Assembly: GCF_017876515.1 (NCBI RefSeq)
Contig: NZ_JAGIOC010000001.1
Coordinates: forward strand, 868,001-932,000
Origin: Brachybacterium fresconis
GTDB taxonomy: Bacteria > Actinomycetota > Actinomycetes > Actinomycetales > Dermabacteraceae
Direction: 5' to 3'
Length of the DNA: 64,000 nt
In this document: positions 9,373-19,332 of the stretch, piece after piece
Layout: each line of letters opens with the position of its first letter
How positions within the stretch are numbered: position 1 is the first letter of the stretch
The notes under the pieces: model-generated
Told to the model about the DNA's origin: nothing
Databases searched by the model: none
The model's input: only the letters and a program-made list of their open reading frames with translations
Program-made: the position numbers and the translations under genes

Positions 9373-10514
9373 TGAGCACGACCACCCCGCCGCCCCGGCC
9401 CGACCGCCCCCGGGTCCAGGACCTCGTCGGCGCCGTGCTCGCCGGCGGCGACACCGAGGACCTGCTGGATCTGCTGGTCCGCTCCGCCCGCACGGACCTC
9501 GACGCCCGCACTGCGGCCCTCGCCCTGCCTCTGGGGCCCGGTACCTGGACGCACGAGATCGTCGACGGCCCCGACGCGCCGGCTCTGCTCGGGGAACCTG
9601 TGGTGCCGGACTCCCCCGCCGGGCGCGCCCTCGAGGACGCCGACGCCGAGGCGTTCGAGGAGATCGGCAGCCTCTCGATCGACGCGCAGGAGCACCGCGC
9701 GCTGCTGGCTCTGATCGACGCCGCCGAGCACGGCGTGGGGACCCTGGTCGTGCTGCGCGGCACCGCAGATGCCCCCTCGGCCCCGTTCACTCCGGCGGAC
9801 CGCGAACGGCTCGACGCCTTGGCCGGTCTCATCGCCCTCACCCTGCGAGCCCCGACCCTGGGCGTCTCCGGGGAGCTGGACGACGAGCGCGGGCGGATCG
9901 CGCGCGATCTGCACGACCTGGCGATCCAGGAGCTGTTCGCGGTGGGGATGGAGCTCGAAGGTCTCACCGACGCCCTGGCCTCCCCCGGGGAGCCGCCCTC
10001 GAACACACGGATCCGCTCCTCCGTCGCCGCCTCCGTGCAGGGGGTGGAGAACGCGGTCGCACAGATCCGGCAGATCGTGCAGTCTCTGCGCCGGCAGCGG
10101 CCGGAGGCGACCCTGACCGAGCAGCTGCGCCACGAGGTGGGACTGGCCACCGCCGGCCTGGGCTTCGTGCCGGCCCTGCGGCTGCCCCCGCACCCGGGGG
10201 AGATGGATGCCGAGCTGCCCGCCGAGGTCGCCGAGGACGTGGTCGCGGTGGTCCGGGAGGGCCTGGCCAACGCCGCACGCCACGCCCACGCCAGCGCCGT
10301 CGCGGTCTCGGTGAGCGTATTCAGCGAGGGCGTGGACCGCGTGGTGCAGGTCAACGTCTCCGACAACGGGCGCGGGATCGACCCCGCGGTGCAGCGGCGC
10401 AGCGGGCTGGCGAACATGTCCAGCCGCGCCCGGCGTCACTCGGGATGGGTCGACGCGATCACCCTCGAGCCGGGCACGATGATCTCCTGGCGCGTCACCC
10501 TGCCGCCGGTGTGA
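9372..10514 (+). CDS. Sensor histidine kinase (NarL/DevS-like)
   Basis: A cytoplasmic histidine kinase of 380 residues without membrane segments. Residues ~20-160 resemble a GAF-like sensor region. The HisKA_3 dimerisation and phosphotransfer helix contains RIARDLHDLAIQEL with phospho-acceptor His181. The C-terminal HATPase domain shows the N-box EGLANAARHAHA and the G-box DNGRGI. It starts on the last base of the cydC stop, so it is probably co-transcribed with cyd, and faces a NarL-type response regulator 15 bp away. Control of cyd in response to redox state or oxygen is an inference from position; the ligand is unknown. Confidence 0.88.
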   Translation: MSTTTPPPRPDRPRVQDLVGAVLAGGDTEDLLDLLVRSARTDLDARTAALALPLGPGTWTHEIVDGPDAPALLGEPVVPDSPAGRALEDADAEAFEEIGSLSIDAQEHRALLALIDAAEHGVGTLVVLRGTADAPSAPFTPADRERLDALAGLIALTLRAPTLGVSGELDDERGRIARDLHDLAIQELFAVGMELEGLTDALASPGEPPSNTRIRSSVAASVQGVENAVAQIRQIVQSLRRQRPEATLTEQLRHEVGLATAGLGFVPALRLPPHPGEMDAELPAEVAEDVVAVVREGLANAARHAHASAVAVSVSVFSEGVDRVVQVNVSDNGRGIDPAVQRRSGLANMSSRARRHSGWVDAITLEPGTMISWRVTLPPV

Positions 10515-10529
10515 TCGGGCCCGGGATGA

Positions 10530-11159
10530 TCAGGAGGGGTCCTGCTTCCAGCCGACGCGGCGGCGGGCGGCCACCATCGCGGCGACCTGGGTGCGGCGCT
10601 GCATGCCGAGGGTCTGCAGGATCACCGTCACCCGGTTCTTGACGGTCTTCTCGGCGATGCCGAGCTCGTCGGCGATCTCGCGGTTGGAGTGCCCGTCGCC
10701 GATCAGGTCGACGATGCGCTGATCGGACTCGGACAGATCCGGGCCGTCGGCGACGTGGTCGGCGGGCCACACGTCCCGGCCCTCGTGCACCGCCCGGATG
10801 GCCGCGACGATCTCCTGGGAGCGGGCGGACTTCAGCATCAGTCCGGCGGCCCCGGCCGACCGCGACTCCCGCAGCGCGGCGTCGTCGTCGAAGCTCGTCA
10901 GCACGAGCATCCGCTGCTCGGGGCAGGTGCTACGAGCGGACCTCATGACGTCGACGCCGGTGCCGTCGGGCAGCTGCAGGTCGACCACCAGCACGTCGGG
11001 GCGGATCGCGGGCAGACGGCGCGTCGCCTCGGCGACGGAGGACGCCTCCCCCACGACGCTCAGACCGTCCTGGGCGTCGATGACCGTGACGATGCCGCGG
11101 CGGACCACCTCGTGGTCGTCGACCAGCATCACGCGGACCTGCTCTGGCGAAGCTGTCAC
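10530..11159 (-). CDS. LuxR/NarL-family response regulator
   Basis: A 209-residue response regulator. The receiver domain carries acidic residues VDDHE near residues 13-17, phospho-acceptor Asp60 in LVVDLQLPDG and the Lys of MLKSA. The C-terminal GerE/LuxR helix-turn-helix contains GHSNREIADELGIAEKTVKNRV. I chose the GTG at 11159 because the reading frame upstream has no receiver homology and runs into the mutM remnant. The gene converges on the kinase gene 10514/10530, and the pair probably forms one two-component system despite opposite orientation. Confidence 0.9.
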   Translation of the reverse strand: MTASPEQVRVMLVDDHEVVRRGIVTVIDAQDGLSVVGEASSVAEATRRLPAIRPDVLVVDLQLPDGTGVDVMRSARSTCPEQRMLVLTSFDDDAALRESRSAGAAGLMLKSARSQEIVAAIRAVHEGRDVWPADHVADGPDLSESDQRIVDLIGDGHSNREIADELGIAEKTVKNRVTVILQTLGMQRRTQVAAMVAARRRVGWKQDPS

Positions 11160-11245
11160 GGCACATCCTTCCGGGTCGGGCCTGCCGTCAGCATATCCGG
11201 CGGCCGCCTCGGGCGAGCCGGAGCAGCGACGTGAGGAGGACGACC

Positions 11246-11398
11246 TCAGCGCCGCGGGAGCGGGCGCTGGCAGCGCGGGCAGAAGTGGCTGCTGCGCCCC
11301 TGATGGACGGCGCGCCGGAGCACGGTGCCGCACCGTCGGCAGGGGGTGCCGTCCTGTCCGTAGGCGGCCAGGGACCGGGCGAAGTAGCCCGACTTCCC
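11246..11398 (-). pseudogene. mutM: mutM 3' fragment (Fpg zinc-finger end)
   Basis: This is the severed C-terminal ~50 codons of formamidopyrimidine-DNA glycosylase. It begins at [14 protein letters not shown] and includes the complete zinc finger pattern CRRCG...FCPRCQ, ending at a normal stop. No start codon or N-terminal domain precedes it. The matching 5' part lies 6.36 kb away at 17742-18575 in the same orientation, ending in GRSGY. Together they make one normal Fpg, so the gene was split by an insertion. The fragment should be non-functional. Confidence 0.9.
11384..11389. repeat. Low-end junction core (direct repeat GTAGCC)
   Basis: This six-base core lies where mutM 3' coding sequence meets island DNA. 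Read on the minus strand the junction codes G-K-S-G-Y-F, versus G-R-S-G-Y at the other junction. A 15-bp context (11378-11392) recurs with one mismatch at 16647-16661. It may be an attachment-site core, or only conserved Gly-Tyr codons. Confidence 0.5.
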
Positions 11399-11618
11399 AC
11401 GATAGATACATTGAAAAACTGGGAGCCTCTGAAGGTGGCGTTTCCGCTGGTCAGAGGATACTTCACGGTGCGACGACGCGTGAAGGACGCGCACTGCCTA
11501 CACACCAGAGTACGGCCTCAGGACTTCAACATGTCAACGGCCCGGTCGAAGGAAGAATCGGGCATCCGTGACCGTGCGCACAGGATGCCTCCGCCAACGA
11601 AGATGGGCACTGCGTCGG

Positions 11619-11958
11619 CTACGACGCAGTCCCGGCCTCCCCTTCTCTTCTTCTCTTGGCGTCCTGTTCGAGCAGGTGGTCCGTGAAGACCTTGGCGATG
11701 AACGTCGTCTGCTCCCGCGTCAGCGGCGGCGCGGCCTGGCGGATCTTCCGGACGTGCTCGGCGTGCGCGGTCAGGCCGAACGCCCGGGTCCAGGTCGGAG
11801 ACCCGGATCAGCGTCTTGATGACCATGCGTCCGTCGCGTCCGTCCACCTTCTCGGTCCGGGCTGGGAGCCTGCCCTGCCAGACGCGCCGCCAGCTGCTCT
11901 TGCTGCAGCCGTGGCGCTCTGCCGAGGCGGCGACGTCGAGCCATTCGTCCACGGCCAT
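11619..11958 (-). pseudogene. Frameshifted small HTH-like protein gene at island end
   Basis: The first ~56 codons read MAVDEWLDVAASAERHGCSK and continue through a GRMVIKTLIRVSD segment that looks like a small winged or excisionase-type DNA-binding fold. After that the frame turns into a low-quality Arg/Pro-rich run, whereas the +1 frame continues sensibly (HAEHVRKIRQAAPPLTREQ, then a charged C-terminus) to a TAG at 11619. The 340-nt span is one base out of frame, so a single indel near 11785-11795 has split it, or the sequence has an error. The family is not recognised. Its position at the island edge suggests a regulatory or mobility role, which is only inference. Confidence 0.5.
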
Positions 11959-11973
11959 CGGCCAGGGTTGTGG

Positions 11974-12891
11974 TCACTCGGTTTCTGCGCTCTGGCGGTC
12001 GTCGGCAGAGCGCGCTGGCTCCGGGGCGCAGCAGTCTGCCTCAGTCTTCCGGAGGCTGGCGCGGCGGCGACGGCTGAGGGTCCCGATCAGCAGCACGACG
12101 ATCACGGCGGCGACGGACACTCCGGTGACGACACCGACGTGTCCTTGGACCCAGCCCGACACCGCAGTGGCGACTCCGGCGACGGCGTTGGTGCGACTGG
12201 AGGCGGCAGCGTCGCCGGTGGCGGCCGGGTACCAGTACCAGGCCAGATAAGCACCGGTGAGTACGAGGACGAAGGCAGTAATCCTGGGCCCATAGCGCGC
12301 CAGCGATGCGATGCGTCGCGACAGCGCCGAACCTGCTGCGGCGGCGGCAACGGCGACGATCAGCAAGACGGTGGCAGAGCCCGCGGCGTACACGCCGAAC
12401 ACGAGGAGCAGCCCTGCGAAGCTGGCTGTGGCCTGGGCCTGCGCGATGACGGCCAGGAGTACGCCGAAGGTGCACGACAGCGACGCCACGGCGTAGCCGA
12501 CCCCGAAGAGGACCATGCGTGCGGTGCTCGGAGGGCGGTCCGTGACTCGGGAAGGGATGCTGGGCAGTCGGAGCGAGAAAGACCGGCCTGTCAGCATCGC
12601 CGCGCCGAACAGGACGAGCACGACGCCGACGGCGAGCCCCAGCACGGGAGCGGCCTGGATCAGGCTCCGCGCTCCGGCGCTCACAGCGATGCCTGCCAGC
12701 GCGAGCGTTCCCGCGAACCCGATGGTCACCGCGACGCCGGCACGCAGCGACCGCAGGAGTCGCACCGGTGCCGGGGAGGAGGAGGCGTCCCCGAGCGCGT
12801 GGGTGATCCACGCCGGGAGCAGGGCAAAGCCGCAGGGATTGACCGGGGCGATCATCCCGGCGGCGAAAGCGAGCGCGAGAAGTCCACCCAT
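11974..12891 (-). CDS. CcdA/DsbD-type membrane thiol transporter in mer operon
   Basis: A 305-residue polytopic membrane protein with about six to seven hydrophobic helices. The two cysteines expected for CcdA-type electron carriers are present: Cys20 in APVNPCGFALLP and Cys140 in SLSCTFGV. Such proteins pass reducing equivalents across the membrane to extracytoplasmic thioredoxin-like partners. The cytoplasmic tail has a vicinal pair in ADCCAPEP, unusual for CcdA and suited to binding a thiophilic metal. It lies 3 bp after a TlpA-like lipoprotein gene, its likely partner, and is the last gene of the mer operon. A role in Hg(II) uptake or in keeping the lipoprotein thiols reduced is inferred. 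Confidence 0.8.
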   Translation of the reverse strand: MGGLLALAFAAGMIAPVNPCGFALLPAWITHALGDASSSPAPVRLLRSLRAGVAVTIGFAGTLALAGIAVSAGARSLIQAAPVLGLAVGVVLVLFGAAMLTGRSFSLRLPSIPSRVTDRPPSTARMVLFGVGYAVASLSCTFGVLLAVIAQAQATASFAGLLLVFGVYAAGSATVLLIVAVAAAAAGSALSRRIASLARYGPRITAFVLVLTGAYLAWYWYPAATGDAAASSRTNAVAGVATAVSGWVQGHVGVVTGVSVAAVIVVLLIGTLSRRRRASLRKTEADCCAPEPARSADDRQSAETE

Positions 12892-12894
12892 GGC

Positions 12895-13422
12895 TCAGGC
12901 CCCGGCCTTCTCGAGCTCGGCGACGATCGTGTCGGCGGCGGGGTCGGTGGCGCGGAATGTCACCTTGCCGTCGGCGTCGACGATGATCAGGGTGGACAGC
13001 GCGGCGACGTCGAAGCGCTGCGACAGGACCGCGCCCTCGTCGATGGCGGCGGGGACGTGTTCGGCCTCGACGTACTCCATGAAGCCCTCAATGGTCTCCT
13101 TGGGCTCGCGCGGATCCATGTCGACGGCGAGGAACTGTGCATCAGTGCCGTTGTCCTCGGCGCTGGCGGCGGCTTCACCGAGGGACCGGACGCCGCCGAC
13201 GCATTCGCCGCAGCCGACGGAGAAGAAGAACACGGCGGTGGGCTTCCCAGCGGCTGGCAGGCTGACCTGCTGGCCGTCGATACTGGTCACGGGTGCGGGC
13301 GAGCCGGCGTCCGCGGAGGACCCGTCCTCGTCGGCGCTACCACAGGCACTCAAGGCCAGAGAACCCACGATCAGGAGGCCTGCGAGCGAAAGGGTTGTGC
13401 GGCGGGTGAGGGATATCGTCAT
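12895..13422 (-). CDS. TlpA/thioredoxin-like lipoprotein in mer operon
   Basis: A 175-residue exported protein. The N-terminus is a lipoprotein signal with lipobox LSAC (lipidated Cys27), then a short disordered linker and a thioredoxin-fold domain with active-site motif CGEC (Cys71, Cys74) after FFFSVG. The fold resembles TlpA/ResA redoxins. It overlaps the MerF-like gene by four bases and is followed by the CcdA-like gene. No MerP with its usual metal-binding motif is present, so this protein may take the extracellular Hg(II)-binding role or act as a redox partner. Function is inferred from the motif and operon. Confidence 0.82.
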   Translation of the reverse strand: MTISLTRRTTLSLAGLLIVGSLALSACGSADEDGSSADAGSPAPVTSIDGQQVSLPAAGKPTAVFFFSVGCGECVGGVRSLGEAAASAEDNGTDAQFLAVDMDPREPKETIEGFMEYVEAEHVPAAIDEGAVLSQRFDVAALSTLIIVDADGKVTFRATDPAADTIVAELEKAGA

Positions 13423-13715
13423 CGGTTCTGGTCGTCCTTCGGGTCTGCGGGCTGGGCGGGGTCGGTGGTCGGGCAGCAGTCGGGTCCGGTGCGGCCGTGG
13501 TGGGCTCGGCGACGGGCGACGACCAGCAGGACGAGCGCGACGAGCGCGATGCCCGCGCCGATCACCCAGGGGTTGCCGAGGAGGCCTCCGACGCCGGCGA
13601 GCACTCCCCCGGCTATGAGCAGTGGCAGTGCGCAGCAGAGGGCCATGAGCAGCACGGCTCCTGCCCCGAAGAGCAGGCCTCCGCCACCTGGCCGGTCATA
13701 GTGTTCTGATGTCAT
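13419..13715 (-). CDS. MerF-like small mercury transport membrane protein
   Basis: A 98-residue protein with two transmembrane helices (about residues 14-40 and 48-68). The first helix contains the vicinal pair Cys27-Cys28 in the form CCxxP, as in MerT and MerF, and a second pair Cys80-Cys81 lies in the cytoplasmic tail. MerF is ~81 residues with the same two-pair layout, so Hg(II) uptake towards MerA is the likely role. It sits between merB and the TlpA-like gene. Sequence similarity to MerF outside these motifs could not be tested. Confidence 0.72.
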   Translation of the reverse strand: MTSEHYDRPGGGGLLFGAGAVLLMALCCALPLLIAGGVLAGVGGLLGNPWVIGAGIALVALVLLVVARRRAHHGRTGPDCCPTTDPAQPADPKDDQNR

Positions 13716-13744
13716 CTGTATCTCGAATCTCTCGAAGTCTTGGG

Positions 13745-14407
13745 TCAGCAGCAGCGGCGGCAGTCGTCGGCCGCCGAGACATCACCCTGGGACCGGTCGA
13801 GCAGGCGCGCGGCGAGTTCGGCTCCGATCCGATGCGCCTCGGCCACCGGCACCGCCTCGGCCCCGGGATGCTCGGCGAGCCACTCGGCAGCGTCGCCAAC
13901 AGAGGTGAAGTAGTGCACCTGGTTGCAGAACGACGATCGGATCGAGGTGATCTGGTCCGGATTCATCAGCGAGACCACGGCAGTGGCGGGCTCGATGCTT
14001 ATGGCTCCGGCGACCGGATCGACGGCGACGCGGATCATCTCGCCGCTGGCCGGGGAGACCGACTCCACGCGCGCTGGGCGGCCGAGAAGCGCCGGGAAGA
14101 CCAGGGTGTCCAGCGCGCACCAGGTGTAGAGCCCTTCTCCTGACGCGGTGAACCGGTGCGGGGTGGGCCGCAGGGTGAGGCCCTGGCCGACGATCCGACC
14201 CAGGTCGTCGTACTCGGTGTCGGGCACCGCTGCCAGCCTGGTCCTGACCTGCTCGGGTGTGCGGCCCGCGGCCGTGGCGAGCTGCTCGACCGTGACGGGA
14301 TCGCCGTCGGCGAGAAGCCGAAGCAGCGGGACGAGCAGGCCGGGGTCGAGACCCGTCTCCTCGGTGCGGCCGAGCCGCTCGGGAAGTTGCTTACTGAGGT
14401 CGGACAT
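13745..14407 (-). CDS. merB: Alkylmercury lyase
   Basis: MerB (220 residues) cleaves the carbon-mercury bond of organomercurials by protonolysis and hands Hg(II) to MerA. The N-terminal winged-helix region is followed by the catalytic residues Cys97 and Asp100 in YTWCALDTLVFP and Cys161 in SSFCNQVHYF, matching C96, D99 and C159 of the well-studied enzyme. The C-terminus ends in CRRCC, an extra thiol cluster that might help transfer mercury. The gene lies 49 bp after merA. Confidence 0.95.
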   Translation of the reverse strand: MSDLSKQLPERLGRTEETGLDPGLLVPLLRLLADGDPVTVEQLATAAGRTPEQVRTRLAAVPDTEYDDLGRIVGQGLTLRPTPHRFTASGEGLYTWCALDTLVFPALLGRPARVESVSPASGEMIRVAVDPVAGAISIEPATAVVSLMNPDQITSIRSSFCNQVHYFTSVGDAAEWLAEHPGAEAVPVAEAHRIGAELAARLLDRSQGDVSAADDCRRCC

Positions 14408-14456
14408 TGCGGGTTCCTCCAGTTCTGAATGCGGGCGGTGTGCTGTCGCGGGGTTC

Positions 14457-15878
14457 TCACGCGCAGCAGGAGAGCTTCGAGACGTCGGTGGTGAAGGCCT
14501 TGGCGGCGATCCGGATGCCCTCGGCCATGGTCAGGTACGGAGCCCAGGCGTCGGCGACCTCGGCGATGGTCTTGCCGAGCACGTGGACCCCGGCGGCGGC
14601 CAGCTCCCCCGCGTCCTTGGCGACCGCGGTCAGCCCCAGGATCTCCCCGGTGTCCGCGTCGGCGACCATCTTGATGAAGCCGCGGGTGTCGCGATTGACC
14701 AGCGCGCGGGGCACGTAGTGCAGGGGCAGGACGCGGCAGTCGCAGCGGATCCCCGCCTCGAGGACCTGCTTCTCGGTCATCCCGACCGCGCCGATGGCAG
14801 GAGAGGTGAACGTCACCCGGGGCAGCCTCGCGTAGTCCACCGGCTTTTGGGCATCTGTGAACGCGTTCTCAGCCACGAGGGTGCCGTGGTGGGCGGCGAC
14901 ATAGACGAACTCGGGGTGCCCGGTGACGTCCCCCGCGGCCCAGACCCGGGGGTTGGACGACTGCAGCTGGTCAGAGACGACGATCTGCCCGGCGTCGCCA
15001 GTCTTCACCTCCACCGCCTCGAGGTTGAGTCCCTCGGTGACCGGCCGTCGGCCGAGCGCGACCAGAACCTGGTCGGCGCGGAAGTCCTGCGATCCGCCGG
15101 ACACGTCGGCGGTGACGACGACCTGTCCGTCCGCGTCGCGGGCGACGCGGGTCGGGACCACTCGGCGGACCACTCGGATGCCCTCGTCGGAGAAGACCTC
15201 GGCCAGGGCATTGGACACCTCCAGCTCCTCCTTCGACGCCAGCCGGGAACGGACCAGCAGGGTCACCTTCGCCCCGAGACGCGCATACAGCTGGGCCTGC
15301 TCCAGCGCCACGTAGCCGCCGCCGAGCACCAGCAGCGACTTCGGCACCGCCGTCAGCTCCATCGCCGTGGTCGAGGTCAGGTACCCGGCCTCTTCCAGGC
15401 CCTCGATCGGCGGGGCCCATGGCCGGGATCCGGTCGCGACCAGGTACTGGTCAGCCTCGATGGTCCCGACGGCCCCGTCGGGTCCGACGACCTCCAGGAC
15501 CGGCGCGTCGGGGGTGCCGGCGAACGAGGCGTCGCCCTTGCGGACGTGCCATCCGTACGCCTCGGCGACATCGACGTACTTCTCGCCTCGCAGGCTCTCG
15601 ACCAGGTCCTGCTTGCTCCCGATCAGCGCCGGCATGTCCACCGGTTCCGCGGCCGCGACGATGCCCGGGAACCGACCAGACGCGTCCATGGCGACGTGGC
15701 GGGCCTCGGCGGCGGCGATGAGCGCCTTCGACGGCACGCAGCCGGTGTTCACGCACGTGCCGCCGAAGGTTCCGCGCTCGATCATCACCACCGACTTGCC
15801 GAGCGTGTTCGCACGGATCGCGGCGGCGAACGCTCCGCCGCCCGATCCGATGATGGCGAGGTCGTACTTCGTAGGCAT
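14457..15878 (-). CDS. merA: Mercuric reductase
   Basis: MerA (473 residues) is the cytoplasmic FAD- and NADPH-dependent enzyme that reduces Hg(II) to volatile Hg(0). Seen are the FAD-binding GSGGGAFAAA, the redox-active disulfide GTCVNTGC (Cys42, Cys47), a second nucleotide-binding site LGGGYVALE, and the C-terminal pair LSCCA that shuttles mercury into the active site. There is no N-terminal heavy-metal-associated domain, so this is the short form. AGGAG lies about 7 nt upstream of the ATG at 15878. It is the first gene of the operon divergent from merR. Confidence 0.97.
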   Translation of the reverse strand: MPTKYDLAIIGSGGGAFAAAIRANTLGKSVVMIERGTFGGTCVNTGCVPSKALIAAAEARHVAMDASGRFPGIVAAAEPVDMPALIGSKQDLVESLRGEKYVDVAEAYGWHVRKGDASFAGTPDAPVLEVVGPDGAVGTIEADQYLVATGSRPWAPPIEGLEEAGYLTSTTAMELTAVPKSLLVLGGGYVALEQAQLYARLGAKVTLLVRSRLASKEELEVSNALAEVFSDEGIRVVRRVVPTRVARDADGQVVVTADVSGGSQDFRADQVLVALGRRPVTEGLNLEAVEVKTGDAGQIVVSDQLQSSNPRVWAAGDVTGHPEFVYVAAHHGTLVAENAFTDAQKPVDYARLPRVTFTSPAIGAVGMTEKQVLEAGIRCDCRVLPLHYVPRALVNRDTRGFIKMVADADTGEILGLTAVAKDAGELAAAGVHVLGKTIAEVADAWAPYLTMAEGIRIAAKAFTTDVSKLSCCA

Positions 15879-15927
15879 CCCTGCTCCTGTCAGTCCTTGG
15901 TCTTCTGTTCCGTCATCAACTATGCTG

Positions 15928-15951
15928 GACCTTCCAGTACAGGGGAAGGTC
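15928..15951. promoter_or_regulatory. mer operator/promoter (MerR dyad)
   Basis: A perfect 8-bp inverted repeat, GACCTTCC-N8-GGAAGGTC, lies between divergent merA and merR. On the merA strand TTGACC (complement of 15948-15953) gives a -35 box immediately next to the dyad, as expected for a MerR-type promoter in which the regulator binds inside a long spacer. The -10 is not clear-cut. MerR should repress without Hg(II) and activate merA with Hg(II). Confidence 0.88.
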
Positions 15952-15982
15952 AAGTACGGCCGCGACACGATCGGAGGACGGC

Positions 15983-16372
15983 GTGAAGATCGGGGAGCTC
16001 GCACAGGCGGCCGGCACCACGGCCAAGACCCTGAGGTTCTACGAGGAGCAGGGGCTGCTACCGCCGCCCGGCAGGACGTCGTCGGGGTACCGTGACTACC
16101 CGCCGGACGCGATCGCACGTGTCGACTTCGTCCACCGCGGCCAGGCCGCCGGCCTCACCCTCGCCCAGATCCGCCAGATCATGGACATCCGCGACGCCGG
16201 ACGTGCCCCGTGCGACCACGTGCGCGACCTGCTCGACGCGCGCCTGCACGACATCGAGCAGCAGATCTCCCAGCTGTCCGCACTGCGCGACACCATCACG
16301 GACCTCCGGGACGATGCAGCGCACCCCGAGCCGGAGACCTGCAGCGCCGATCAGGTGTGTCGCTACCTGTAG
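15983..16372 (+). CDS. merR: Mercury-responsive regulator MerR
   Basis: MerR (129 residues) is a dimeric DNA-distorting regulator. It has the N-terminal HTH (MKIGELAQAAGTTAKTLRFYE), the coiled-coil dimer helix, and three cysteines Cys77, Cys120 and Cys126 whose spacing fits the Hg(II) site of classical MerR (82, 117, 126). It starts with GTG and is transcribed away from merA across the dyad at 15928-15951. CueR-like metal sensors also use this dyad, but the three-Cys pattern and merAB context favour mercury. Confidence 0.95.
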   Translation: MKIGELAQAAGTTAKTLRFYEEQGLLPPPGRTSSGYRDYPPDAIARVDFVHRGQAAGLTLAQIRQIMDIRDAGRAPCDHVRDLLDARLHDIEQQISQLSALRDTITDLRDDAAHPEPETCSADQVCRYL

Positions 16373-16699
16373 GTCCTCGTCAGACGTCGAAAGTTGTGAA
16401 AGGAAGACCGTCAGTCAGCCTCGACGGCTTCGTCGATTGAACGGGTCTCATGGACCGCCGCTGCAAGTCAGTGCCCACCCCGAACTGGGCAAATCGCCCT
16501 GTCCTCACCACTGCCGGTTCGTGCCGTGGAACTGCAGTGTCCGCATCGACGCCCACGCGCGGTGCGAGAGAATACCGTGACCGGAGCGCTTCTGGAGCGA
16601 CGGTGATCGTCCTACATTGACGTATCGGGAAACGAGGCGACGCCATGGCGATGTAGCCCGATCCCCTGTTTGTGATCGCGTCGCAGGCGACCGATCGAA
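16373..16699. other. Gene-free stretch between merR and mutM2, with att-like site
   Basis: This 327-bp stretch holds no convincing gene. A 15-bp segment at 16647-16661 matches the low-end island junction (11378-11392) at 14 of 15 bases, including the GTAGCC core, and lies 38 bp beyond the mutM2 stop. A sequence ACATTGACGTA at 16614-16624 recurs in inverted orientation at 17727-17737 in the high end. Near 16400 a short run resembling the start of dihydrofolate-reductase-like proteins (SVSLDGFVD) ends at once in a stop, and is too short to call. Confidence 0.5.
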
Positions 16700-17539
16700 C
16701 TAGCGTTTCCGCTGGCAGACAGGGCAGAAGAAACTCGATCGGTTCATGAACTTCTCCCGCACGATCGACGTCCCGCAGCGCATGCAAGGCTGGCCAGCAA
16801 GACCGTAGGCATTCAGGCTGCGGGCAAAATAGCCGCTGCTGCCGGCCACGTCGACATAGAGGGAGTCGAACGATGTACCGCCCTGGGCAAGAGCAGCGGC
16901 CATGACCTCCCGCGCCGCATCGACCAGCGCTGAGATCCTTGGCTTGCTCAACGACGAGGCTGCCGTCTCCCCCTGCTCCTTGGCAGCCCACAGTGCCTCG
17001 TCGGCGTAGATGTTCCCGATGCCGGACACCACCGTCTGGTCCAGCAACACGCGCTTGATCCCGGTGCTCCTGGCCTTGATCCGCGCGACCGCCGCCGGCT
17101 GGTCGAACTGCGGGTCGAAGGGATCCCTCGCGATGTGGGCGATCAGCGAGGGCAGCACCGCTCCGCCCTCGTCGTACAGCAGATGGCCGAACGTGCGCTG
17201 GTCGTCGAACCGCAGATCGTGGCCTCCGTCGGTGAAGGTGAAGCGCGCCCGCTCGTGCGCGGCGACTGCGGCATCAGGGGACGAAATGAGCATCTGCCCG
17301 CTCATCCCCAGATGCATCAGCAACGCATCTGCACCGTCCAGGATCAGCCACAGGTACTTGCCGCGGCGCGCAGTCCCCGTGATCGTCGCACCGACCATCC
17401 GTGCTGCGAGATCCGCCGGACCGCCCACATGACGTCGCGCCGCACGCGGATGCAGAACAGTCGCCGAGGCGATCGTCCGGCCACGGACATGATCGTCGAT
17501 CCCCCGACGCACGACCTCGACCTCAGGCAATTCAGGCAC
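16700..17539 (-). CDS. mutM: Second, complete formamidopyrimidine-DNA glycosylase (island-borne)
   Basis: A full-length Fpg/MutM of 279 residues that excises 8-oxoguanine and formamidopyrimidines and nicks the abasic site. It has the catalytic N-terminus [12 protein letters not shown] (Pro after the initiator, then Glu), the conserved Lys in [16 protein letters not shown], the helix-two-turn-helix motif [12 protein letters not shown], and a complete zinc finger CMRCG...FCPVCQ. GTG 17539 puts Pro at position 2 and has GAGG 8 nt upstream; a GTG 9 bp earlier would add residues incompatible with catalysis. It clearly differs from the broken host copy (for example no ~35-residue insertion mid-protein), so it came from another lineage and probably restores MutM activity. 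Confidence 0.93.
16829..16834 (-). other. Recoded target core inside mutM2
   Basis: In mutM2 the Gly-Tyr codons at the position where the host mutM is cut read GGCTAT instead of the GGCTAC found at both junctions. The amino acids are unchanged. If GGCTAC is the recombination core, the replacement gene would be a poorer target. Confidence 0.4.
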
Positions 17540-17741
17540 AGGCCACACCTCGCAGACTCCGCGACCCGACTTTGTGTCGGTGCGCTACTAAATGGGCTGG
17601 ACCGTTGAGCTGCTTGTCCAGAGCCCTTCGTGCCAGGTCAGACCGCAATATCGCTTGTCGACGCATGGCCGATGCCCGGCACAGACAATCGCGACCTTCG
17701 TGTGCACGGCTTCCTTCGACTCGCTCTACGTCAATGTCGAG
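17540..17741. other. High end of the mutM island
   Basis: No gene is seen between mutM2 and the junction. A hairpin at about 17594-17626 (GGGCTCTGGAC paired with GTCCAGCCC on the minus strand, then ATTTA) could stop transcripts entering from the truncated host mutM. The last 28 bp (17714-17741) resemble mutM codons S-F-D-S-L-Y-V-N-V-E but in inverted orientation. Confidence 0.5.
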
Positions 17742-17784
17742 GTAGCCGCTGCGCCCCTCGACGTTGACGTACAGCGCATCGAAG
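17714..17784. repeat. 28-bp inverted repeat across the high-end junction
   Basis: The arm 17714-17741 (island) and the arm 17757-17784 (host mutM) are inverted copies with 24 of 28 matches, separated by a 15-bp spacer that contains the GTAGCC core. In coding terms the island arm reads SFDSLYVNVE and the host arm SFDALYVNVE; three of the four differences are silent. This is either a recombinase recognition dyad or a captured mutM fragment. Confidence 0.7.
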
Positions 17785-18575
17785 CTGGTGCCGCCGACGG
17801 CCAGCGCCCGCTCCATCACCGCGCCGGCCGCACGCAGGATCGCCAGCGCCCTGCGCTGGGTCAGCGCCGCGCCGGGGGTGTCGTAGCGGGTACGGGCCTC
17901 CCACAGCGCCTCGTCGGCGTAGATGTTGCCGATGCCGCTGACCAGGTCCTGGGCCAGCAGCAGCGACTTCACGCCGGCGCGCCGGGAGCGGATCGTGCGG
18001 GCGATCGCGGGCAGGTCCGCCGCGGGGTCGAGCAGGTCACGGGCGATGCGCGCGGCGTCGGTCGGCAGCATCGCGTCCGGGCTGCCGAGCCCGGCGAGGG
18101 AGCCGTCGGCGGCGGGTTCGAGGGGGCTGGACCAGATCCCGCCGAAGATCCGCTGGTCGATCAGGTCGATCGCGGTGCCGTCGTCGAGGTGGAGGCTCAG
18201 GCGGCGGTGGCGCAGCGGATCCGAGGCGGGTCCCTCGGACGGGGCGAGCTCGGATGGGGCGGCAGCCTCGGAGCGCCCAGGGGTGAGCGGCCCGGCGTCG
18301 CGCACGCGCAGCTGCCCGCTCATGCCCAGGTGCGCCATCAGCGCCTCGCCGGTGTCCTCGCCGGTCTCGTCGGCCAGGCGCCACCACAGGAACTTCCCGC
18401 GGCGCACGACGGCGGTCATCCGGGTGCCGGCCAGGGCACCGCGCAGACGGTCCGCTCCGCCGCTCTGACGGCGCAGGATCCGGGGGTCGAGCACCTCGAC
18501 CGATTCGATCAGGCGGCCGACGGTGCGGGGTTCCAGGCCTCGACGGACGACCTCGACCTCGGGCAGCTCGGGCAC
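17742..18575 (-). pseudogene. mutM: mutM 5' fragment (Fpg without zinc finger)
   Basis: This is the host Fpg gene up to codons for GTSFDALYVNVEGRSGY, starting with GTG at 18575 ([12 protein letters not shown] follows). The catalytic Pro/Glu, MAHLGMSGQ and [14 protein letters not shown] motifs are intact, with a ~35-residue Ser/Pro/Ala-rich insertion mid-protein. After GRSGY the frame enters island DNA and runs on to 17532 as a meaningless tail, so the zinc finger needed for DNA binding is lost. It begins 4 bp after the rnc stop, so its transcription is likely still driven with rnc. Residual activity is unlikely but untested. Confidence 0.9.
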
Positions 18576-18579
18576 GGCC

Positions 18580-19332
18580 TCAGCCCCGCGGGATCAGAGA
18601 TTCGCCGCGCTCGGCCAGGACGGTGCGCACGGCGGTCTGGGCGGCGGCGAGCTCGGCGTCCTTCTTGGAGGCCCCCTCGCCGTGCGCGCTCACGACGCCC
18701 TCGACGCTGACGGAGGCGGTGAAGACCTTGGCGTGCTCGAGGCCGTCCTCGGTGAGGCGGTAGGTGGGGCTCGTGCCCGCGGCGGCGGCGATCTCCTGCA
18801 GGCGGGACTTGAAGTCGTAGCTGGTCTCGAGGAACTCGTCGGAATCCAGCAGCGGGGCCATGAGGTCGAGCACGAAGCGGCGGGAGACGCTCTGGCCGAG
18901 GGCGAGGTGGACGGCGCCGATCACGGCCTCGGTGGTGTCGGCGAGGATGGAGGACTTCGCCCGGCCGCCGGTGAGGTCCTCCCCGCGGCCCAGCTTCACG
19001 TACGCGCCGAGGTCGAGCTTCGAGGCGATCACGGCGAGGGCCCGGGTGCTCACGGTCGCGGCACGCCGGCGGGCCAGATCACCCTCGGGCAGCGTGGGAT
19101 GGGAGGCGTACAGCTGCTCGGTGACCGCCAGCTGCAGCACCGCGTCGCCGAGGAACTCCAGGCGCTCGTTGTGCGGGAGGCCGTCGTGCTCGTAGGAGTA
19201 CGAACGGTGGGTCAGAGAGAGGTCGAGCAGACCTGATTCGCGCAGGTCCGCCGCCTGTGCGCCGTCCAGGGGCAGGCCCTCGAGCAGCTGCGCCGGATCG
19301 GCGGCCTCGGTGGCGCGGCGCCTGCGCGCCAT
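18580..19332 (-). CDS. rnc: Ribonuclease III
   Basis: RNase III (250 residues) cleaves double-stranded RNA, including rRNA precursors. The catalytic signature NERLEFLGDAVLQL is present with the second acidic site in DTTEAVIGAVHL, and a C-terminal double-stranded RNA-binding domain ends in GEGASKKDAELAAAQTAVRTVL. The ATG at 19332 overlaps the stop of the DUF177 gene (TGATG); longer in-frame extensions are Arg/Pro-rich noise. mutM follows 4 bp later, the usual actinobacterial order. Confidence 0.95.
   Translation of the reverse strand: MARRRRATEAADPAQLLEGLPLDGAQAADLRESGLLDLSLTHRSYSYEHDGLPHNERLEFLGDAVLQLAVTEQLYASHPTLPEGDLARRRAATVSTRALAVIASKLDLGAYVKLGRGEDLTGGRAKSSILADTTEAVIGAVHLALGQSVSRRFVLDLMAPLLDSDEFLETSYDFKSRLQEIAAAAGTSPTYRLTEDGLEHAKVFTASVSVEGVVSAHGEGASKKDAELAAAQTAVRTVLAERGESLIPRG

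Follow-up and report, generated by a model that had tools for sequence, protein, structure and literature searches.

The 6.36-kb island that interrupts mutM in Brachybacterium fresconis is probably one of a family of small, non-autonomous, site-specific modules that use a single GG dinucleotide of actinobacterial mutM as their insertion point and are moved in trans. In the stretch of 64,000 nucleotides analysed (the window), the host mutM, on the minus strand, is interrupted within the Gly codon of ...R-S-G|Y-F, at its GG. Its 5' part (17746..18575, minus strand) ends at this GG, with the Fapy_DNA_glyco and H2TH domains present and zf-FPG absent; the left crossover dinucleotide lies at 17746..17747, where host AGC-GG is followed by module sequence CTACCTCGACATTG. 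Junction comparison placed the right crossover GG at 11388..11389, and the 3' part (11246..11389, minus strand) reads CTACTTCGCCC..., followed by the zinc finger, the stop and then a response-regulator gene. Between the two GGs lie 6,356 bp, which carry mer genes as well as a second mutM that is complete and distinct from the first. The initial annotation, which had reported a host mutM split by an island of 6.36 kb with a mercury operon and a full-length second mutM, was right to within a few bases, with the GG as the exchange point. It had let the fragments meet at G-R/K-S-G-Y; the 'G-K' before S-G-Y is part of the right end of the module and not host sequence.

The 5' part was 91.7% identical over its 278 aa to mutM of congener G023 (93% in another comparison), and the 3' part resembled the native C-terminus in congeners G020 and G001 (L008, L010), where the response-regulator gene directly follows mutM, the same as in the window. 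These congener matches and the shared downstream gene indicate that the two parts are adjacent pieces of one gene; the alignment suggested in the initial annotation thus returned neighbouring fragments and an uninterrupted site in congeners. The mutM C-terminus was uninterrupted in all 29 congener loci fetched (of 37 congeners), among which G028 clearly, G023 and G014 probably and G031 maybe have been restored by other modules; for G023 and G014 a separate host 3' piece was not recovered, and the module reading there comes from interposed genes only. In the window, the host mutM has lost its zinc finger and its frame is unrestored.

The left end of the module (17532..17745, minus strand) continues the host fragment in frame (YLDIDVERVEGSR...) without a zinc finger, and the fused ORF terminates 8 nt inside the start of the island mutM/fpg. 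This gene is complete (16700..17539, minus strand; 279 aa from GTG; listed ORF 17548-16700) and contains a GG (16833..16834) that marks where the mer module proper starts on the left, the boundary employed in Brevibacterium CS2. Profile searches identified merR (15983..16372, plus strand) and, on the minus strand, the mercuric reductase gene merA (14457..15878, TIGR02053), the organomercurial lyase gene merB (13745..14407) and a redoxin/TlpA-like lipoprotein gene (12895..13422). Also on the minus strand are a gene for a small membrane protein, weakly MerE-like below the cut-off (13419..13715), and one for a CcdA-like membrane protein (11974..12891), named from similar annotated plasmid genes and with no Pfam match over the cut-off. 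Near the right end lies a helix-turn-helix (HTH) gene of family fam10 (11625..11955, minus strand), frameshifted into pieces at 11737-11955 and 11625-11786. A comparison of ends across modules defined the conserved right end, AATGTATCTATCGTGGGAAGTCG (11390..11412, minus strand). By eye, the two ends of the window module share a 7-bp TCAATGT/ACATTGA and are otherwise not inverted repeats of each other. An Rfam scan of positions 10500-19000 returned no RNA family.

Tn21-like mercury transposons carry tnpA/tnpR and, at their termini, inverted repeats about 38 bp long. Here, a profile search of nine window proteins found no transposase or resolvase, and no long terminal inverted repeat was present among the 25 longest listed for the window. 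Mer operons are frequent on transposons and plasmids, and the best plasmid matches of these mer genes are about 79-83% identical, which would suit an ordinary mercury transposon or ICE remnant that broke mutM by chance with the second mutM as random cargo. We consider this highly improbable and rejected a chance transposon hit, because members of a family have inserted at one and the same nucleotide in many genera, carry cargos unrelated to each other and have conserved ends and restoring tails, and because the island mutM copies form one clade and lie at the same module end.

The same mutM site is occupied in Brevibacterium, Kocuria, Arsenicicoccus, Thermocrispum, Tomitella, Janibacter, Curtobacterium and others, among the samples of actinobacterial genomes surveyed (940 genome look-ups). 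The modules, some in tandem, carry mercury, copper or arsenic resistance or defence genes. The same right end was found at the corresponding mutM position in other genera, indicating that the insertion position is not due to chance; the use of a coding gene as an insertion site, as initially proposed, therefore extends beyond this host, and the view of a lone element gave way to a wider family, in which modules can form tandem arrays and the arrays searched contain no recognisable recombinase. The same insertion point in independent hosts, with uninterrupted relatives, is the pattern of an integrative site-specific island. The mutM site is not absolute, since in Glutamicibacter a related array adjoins pdxS and the host mutM is intact elsewhere.

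At 13 of the 18 loci checked, the host frame continues into a complete 3' tail, mostly module-borne, with a four-Cys zinc finger. At the other five, the window included, the host gene stays unrestored, and each of these carries a complete travelling mutM. A split mutM accompanied by a second copy, which the initial annotation had proposed searching for, thus recurs, but restoration predominates; likewise, the claim that a cargo paralogue repairs the damage fits the intact, selected island mutM of the window, but the usual remedy is the 3' tail. It had also been argued that the island is hard to lose, a reasonable proposal that would be confined to loci with an unrestored host gene; excision precisely at the GG would give back an intact host gene.

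Nearly the same module was found in different host mutM genes, with 98.3-99.4% identity between the window and Brevibacterium W7.2 and 95.7-97.1% between the window and B. sandarakinum. In Brevibacterium CS2, a mer module 97.3% identical over 5.5 kb begins exactly at the GG within the island mutM and completes the host mutM. These results demonstrate that the mer module is separable from the 5' part of the island mutM at the GG, and that the island mutM has the restoring tail of the mer module as its 3' end; the cargo paralogue, initially taken as one gene, consists of two parts. The host sequence of CS2 runs through a diverged stretch up to the GG, and module sequence follows from the GG onward, which excludes an exchange in the identical stretch upstream. 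This bears on the idea that mutM-flanked DNA, acquired by transformation or conjugation, spreads the modules through homologous recombination, with mutM as a conserved anchor and no dedicated recombinase. Conserved mutM and the lack of an integrase in any searched array would agree with that; however, modules 98-99% identical reside in hosts from two different families, and on either side the native flank extends to the GG itself. Together with the CS2 junction, these flanks led us to reject homologous recombination as the sole mechanism, and we regard it as an unlikely explanation.

We then consider the junctions and the moving enzyme. Both junctions were tabulated for seven single-module hosts, of which three contain nearly the same module, and GG was present at both; the base before it differed between left and right in 7/7 and the base after it in 4/7. 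The common core is GG, with 2-3 bp shared. Inside the arrays, no match was found to PF00589 (tyrosine integrase; 13 + 9 genomes), PF00239 (serine recombinase; 17 genomes) or PF07508 (13 genomes), so the searched arrays do not represent islands encoding their own tyrosine or serine integrase. Arrays in Kocuria, Tomitella, Janibacter, B. casei, XM4083 and G491 are cut by contig ends, beyond which an integrase could lie; the complete arrays searched contained none. Searches of viral contigs with the island MutM and fam10 proteins and two end patterns revealed no autonomous or helper element, and plasmids contained neither a fam10 match nor a mutM at least 60% identical to the island copy.

IMEX-type elements are moved by host XerC/XerD. 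A similar use of host Xer proteins would accord with Brevibacterium W7.2, which holds a near-identical module and has only two tyrosine recombinases, with XerD and XerC as best models (the second below the XerC cut-off; relatives occur in the four other hosts compared), and with genome G598, which has two tyrosine recombinases and no PF00239 match. Against it, inspection of the ends by eye alone showed no dif-like 28-bp site, and the junctions share 2-3 bp rather than a 6-bp overlap; we judge Xer-mediated movement to be rather improbable. By eye, some arrays carry IS transposases as passengers. These, and the GG at both ends, could point to a 2-bp target duplication made by a transposase in trans during site-selective transposition, but the single preferred target, same orientation, tandem addition and restoring tails are typical of attP x attB recombination, and the ends are by eye not inverted repeats save for the 7-bp motif of the window module. 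We therefore hold target duplication to be quite improbable. For the site-specific module family, we infer that a recombinase would act in trans with a serine-type 2-bp crossover and that helper elements may provide transfer.

The island MutM is full length, scores over the NCBIfam Fpg cut-offs and has the N-terminal Pro-Glu, H2TH, four-Cys zinc finger and Fpg equivalog score. Its identity to the host 5' part is 41.9%, a value obtained with the identical copy in L036, and it is the only full-length MutM in the genome, where the other four matches are the two host fragments (accounting for three matches) and a weak relative (73 aligned residues, 34% identity). The travelling mutM genes form one clade (100/94; 12/12 rows), and dN/dS values of 0.12-0.19 for the island mutM demonstrate purifying selection. 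Judging from these sequence features, the island MutM presumably performs repair in vivo, and the host appears to have ceded a core DNA-repair gene to a mobile element. MutM was rejected as the mobility enzyme, since Curtobacterium S6 carries three modules with its host mutM restored and lacks a second complete mutM.

The landing-site codons of the island mutM read V-D-V-A-G-S-S-G instead of the usual V-N-V-N/D-G-x-S-G. Compared with 92 other MutMs picked by similarity, residue 230 is D in 12/12 island copies (N in 78/92 and D in 10/92 others) and residue 232 is A in 11/12 (N, D or E in 90/92 others); residue 234 is S in 12/12 island copies. These residues are at most suggestive of a gene that might be immune to insertion. 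A stricter filter over the whole alignment, retaining columns where the island differs and at least 85% of natives share one residue, passed three columns, none in the landing site, which disfavours special recoding.

The most recurrent accessory gene is fam10, often broken and absent from some modules. It is frameshifted in the mer modules of the window, L036, L037 and CS2, has stops in B. casei and Glutamicibacter, and gave no match in G028, G023 and G014; a requirement for fam10 in cis was rejected, because it is broken or missing in many modules. Its predicted fold is a confident HTH model (pLDDT 83.5) with no PDB match at E<=0.001, the best including MerR- and MarR-type regulators and BldC. 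Calling the modelled protein 'excisionase-like' would be a guess.

SCC/SCCmec elements are site-specific cassettes at rlmH with ccr genes, tandem accretion and resistance cargo. Unlike them, the mutM modules have no ccr or other serine recombinase in the searched arrays, and their site is mutM, in the gene interior rather than at the extreme 3' end, with a restoring tail of about 45 codons. The core-gene site, tandem accretion and resistance cargo are shared with SCC. PMC3146451, in which SCC is compared, describes Dehalococcoides ssrA islands, which lie in tandem in the 3' part of a core gene present as a single copy and have variable cargo, sixteen of them with an integration module and the CcrB-like serine recombinase DsiB. 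Like the mutM modules, these are bounded by repeated gene ends and include members without integration genes; in contrast, the mutM modules lack a recombinase in the searched arrays, target a protein-coding repair gene and, in one subfamily, carry a complete second target copy. Cis-mobilizable elements or hitchers, as outlined in parts of PMC3146451 and PMC11389934, have att-type ends and no integration or transfer genes and are mobilised with adjacent islands. The mutM modules match this class, including CIME-type accretion, in their att-type ends, tandem arrays and lack of integration and transfer genes (transfer genes by ORF reading only), but form a cross-genus family with no autonomous partner found in viral contigs or plasmids. 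With the CALINs, integron cassette arrays that lack an integrase (PMC11389934), they share tandem mobile cassettes and would share a recombinase in trans, whereas cassettes at mutM are multi-gene and restore the host gene.

Under the site-specific module reading, insertion occurs at the single GG in the codons for ...V-N-G-E/R-S-G-Y-F, and a normal module is laid out as mutM 3' tail, cargo and right end. The tail takes the place of the displaced host 3' end to give a chimeric, complete MutM, and later modules can join in tandem. One subfamily is headed by a captured mutM that comes from a single mobile lineage. In the window, the outer left end no longer restores the host gene; the host copy is dead, and the only complete MutM gene left is the travelling one, composed of a 5' part and the tail of the mer module. 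A more elaborate version is tentative and somewhat doubtful: mutM would be the landing platform of integrase-less actinobacterial cassettes, each with a restoring tail and moved by an unrecognised trans recombinase at GG, and the recoded whole mutM of one lineage may resist insertion and let the host copy decay.

No account of mobile elements in mutM/fpg was found in the open-access literature searched, and the available passages of PMC2621215 and PMC11078745 name mutM/fpg only as a repair gene or within a reference. These findings identify mutM as a recurrent insertion hotspot for which that literature yielded no earlier description, and raise the question of which enzyme moves site-specific modules without an integrase. 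The genes found at this hotspot across actinobacterial genera are those for resistance to mercury, copper and arsenic and for phage defence.

The initial annotation that host mutM is split by an island carrying mer genes and a complete second mutM was confirmed. On the minus strand, the host mutM 5' part (18575-17746) encodes the Fapy and H2TH domains, lacks the zinc finger, and breaks off two bases into a Gly codon. After a 6,356-bp module, the gene resumes as a 3' part (11389-11246, minus strand), which contains the zinc finger and is followed by a response-regulator gene. This 3' part and its downstream neighbour are similar to those of congeners with an unbroken gene (loci L008 and L010), as expected if the pieces came from one gene. 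Besides the complete island mutM (16700-17539), the module carries merR, merA, merB, genes for a small membrane protein, a redoxin and a CcdA-like protein, and fam10, an HTH gene with a frameshift. No second full-length MutM besides the island copy was found in the genome. A tandem repeat of about 43 bp occurs in loci L036 and L037, and the window has one copy fewer (12062-12116).

Scanning with island MutM yielded at least 80 loci, 14 of those listed having about 80% identity or more, two of which end at contig ends. Around most of these 14, the host 5' part was followed in turn by a left end, the island mutM, cargo and a right end, with the host 3' part last. We mapped mutM pieces in 13 genomes, including that of the window, fetched the regions, and found tandem arrays: three modules spanning 56 kb in Curtobacterium S6, two modules each in Arsenicicoccus and Brevibacterium CS2, two within view in Kocuria sp. 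36, and a further array in B. casei. Cargo comprised Hg, As, and Cu resistance (As and Cu assigned by eye), type I restriction, ApeA, and helicase, nuclease or AAA systems. In genome G028, of the window's own genus, a module of ~2.7 kb occupies the same site and the native 3' piece is detached. In two other genomes of this genus, G023 and G014, ~5.4 and 7.3 kb of other genes separate mutM from the response regulator; because no detached 3' piece was found in either, we consider them only probable module cases.

In Glutamicibacter nicotianae, a mer-Cu array of this family (L133, about 1150-1230) is located next to pdxS (assigned by eye) instead of within mutM. It follows a short stretch that resembles mutM, TGTACGTCAATGTGAACGTAAAATCGG; an intact host mutM is present elsewhere in the genome, and we regard the position next to pdxS as a secondary or relic site. 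In the Curtobacterium sp. S6 record (L113/L121), host MutM clusters with Kocuria sp. 36 and a Rothia MAG, and a XerD-like protein is 78% identical to that of Kocuria, indicating that the genus name may be wrong.

We then compared the junctions. Of 26 junction strings, 25 were located, the missing one being that for CS2. As the strings hold GG (17746-17747 and 11388-11389 in the window) by construction, the informative positions are those around it. Both junctions were tabulated for seven hosts with a single module (window, L036, L037, Thermocrispum, Phytoactinopolyspora, G028, and G353; the first three carry nearly the same module). In these hosts, the base preceding GG differed between left and right junctions in all seven, and the base following it in four. 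These differences place the exchange point within GG. A 2-bp crossover is a mark of serine recombinases, and 6-8 identical bases are expected at the junctions of a tyrosine recombinase. GG at both ends could possibly also represent a 2-bp target duplication.

We checked 18 host loci for restoration of the gene. In 13 of them, the 5' part of the host gene continues into a tail that supplies a four-Cys zinc finger and ends in a stop, and the module-borne origin of this tail is shown by a detached 3' piece or a further downstream tail in all except G023 and G014 (in Tomitella, on another contig). The 18 leave out Glutamicibacter, contig-end pieces of B. casei, XM4083, Kocuria C2, and Tomitella C50, and genomes G491, G024, and G031. 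The five unrestored loci are the window, B. sandarakinum, Brevibacterium W7.2 (5' part additionally frameshifted), B. casei contig L042, and Janibacter, whose tail is present minus one zinc-finger Cys and the stop. A complete island mutM adjoins the host gene in all five, which are non-independent in that three carry nearly the same module. An island mutM also occurs in five of the restored loci (Thermocrispum, Kocuria, Phytoactinopolyspora, Tomitella, and Arsenicicoccus, there in a later module); in the other eight, none was in view. A cargo mutM, the remedy proposed in the initial annotation, is not the most frequent one: most of the host frames checked run into a zinc-finger tail.

In a MutM tree built from the first part only, up to Ser-Phe-Asp before the landing site, island MutM formed a single clade of 12 (support 100/94), with the 92 other rows and every one of the 12 host copies falling outside it. 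Host MutM of Brevibacterium, the window's genus, Janibacter, and Arsenicicoccus clustered with relatives, and that of Thermocrispum, Phytoactinopolyspora, and Tomitella was poorly placed. Nine comparisons of the window with other island copies gave dN of 0.060-0.115 and dS of 0.39-0.82; L036 and L037 encode the same island protein as the window. In CS2, host mutM continues exactly from GG as the island mutM tail, followed by mer genes (97.3% identity to the window over 5.5 kb), and the complete island mutM is missing. This join suggests a separable mer module proper of about 5.4 kb that includes a restoring tail; the window's complete mutM would combine this tail with a 5' part that travels and has a separate outer left end. 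Equally possible is a later GG-to-GG deletion of the travelling 5' part in CS2, which likewise requires exchange at GG. The fused host ORF stops 8 nt into the island mutM, so that the latter may be expressed from the promoter of the host gene and may be translationally coupled to it; since mutM begins ATG/GTG-CCT-GA, any such frame would stop there.

No match to PF00589 (tyrosine recombinase; 13 genomes plus 9 more), PF07508 (13 genomes) or PF00239 (17 genomes; both serine recombinase profiles) was found between the mutM pieces of any array, although arrays at contig ends were visible only in part. Just two tyrosine recombinases, one XerD-like and one XerC-like, are present in W7.2, together with three large serine recombinases outside the array; the latter type is absent from 4 of 13 hosts (G436, G437, G440, and G443). 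In the genomes searched, these hosts thus share no dedicated helper at present. Possible movers include Xer, transient helper elements, or an enzyme of a type not yet recognised. Just left of the window, ~20 kb from the module, lies a gene for a large serine recombinase (G000:C1:858188-859003; open frame 676 aa).

With the window's genome counted, fam10 occurred in 2 genomes of a phylum sample of 396 and, by profile, in 8 genomes of an order sample of 396. One of the eight, G602, has the coordinates of the Janibacter genome already seen; in the remaining six, fam10 lies near mutM pieces, except in G024, where only a partial island mutM adjoins. An XRE-type regulator gene (~74 aa, by eye) is divergent from and adjoins fam10 in several modules (L137/L138, L156, L157, and L119, near right ends), and ApeA-HEPN genes recur in the interval between fam10 and the right end, as Pfam confirmed for L158. 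Repeated GAGTCGA/AGTCGACT motifs, noted by eye within ~80 bp before the right GG (L119-L121, L125, L127, and L128), resemble sites that a recombination or accessory protein might bind.

No account of elements in mutM/fpg was found in the literature searched. The modules resemble Dehalococcoides ssrA islands and SCC/CIME accretion (PMC3146451, PMC11389934), but the integrase of such systems was absent from every mutM-module member seen. The initial interpretation was partly borne out. Most likely, the modules form a family that is site-specific and non-autonomous and whose tails restore the gene; one branch of this family has taken over mutM entirely.
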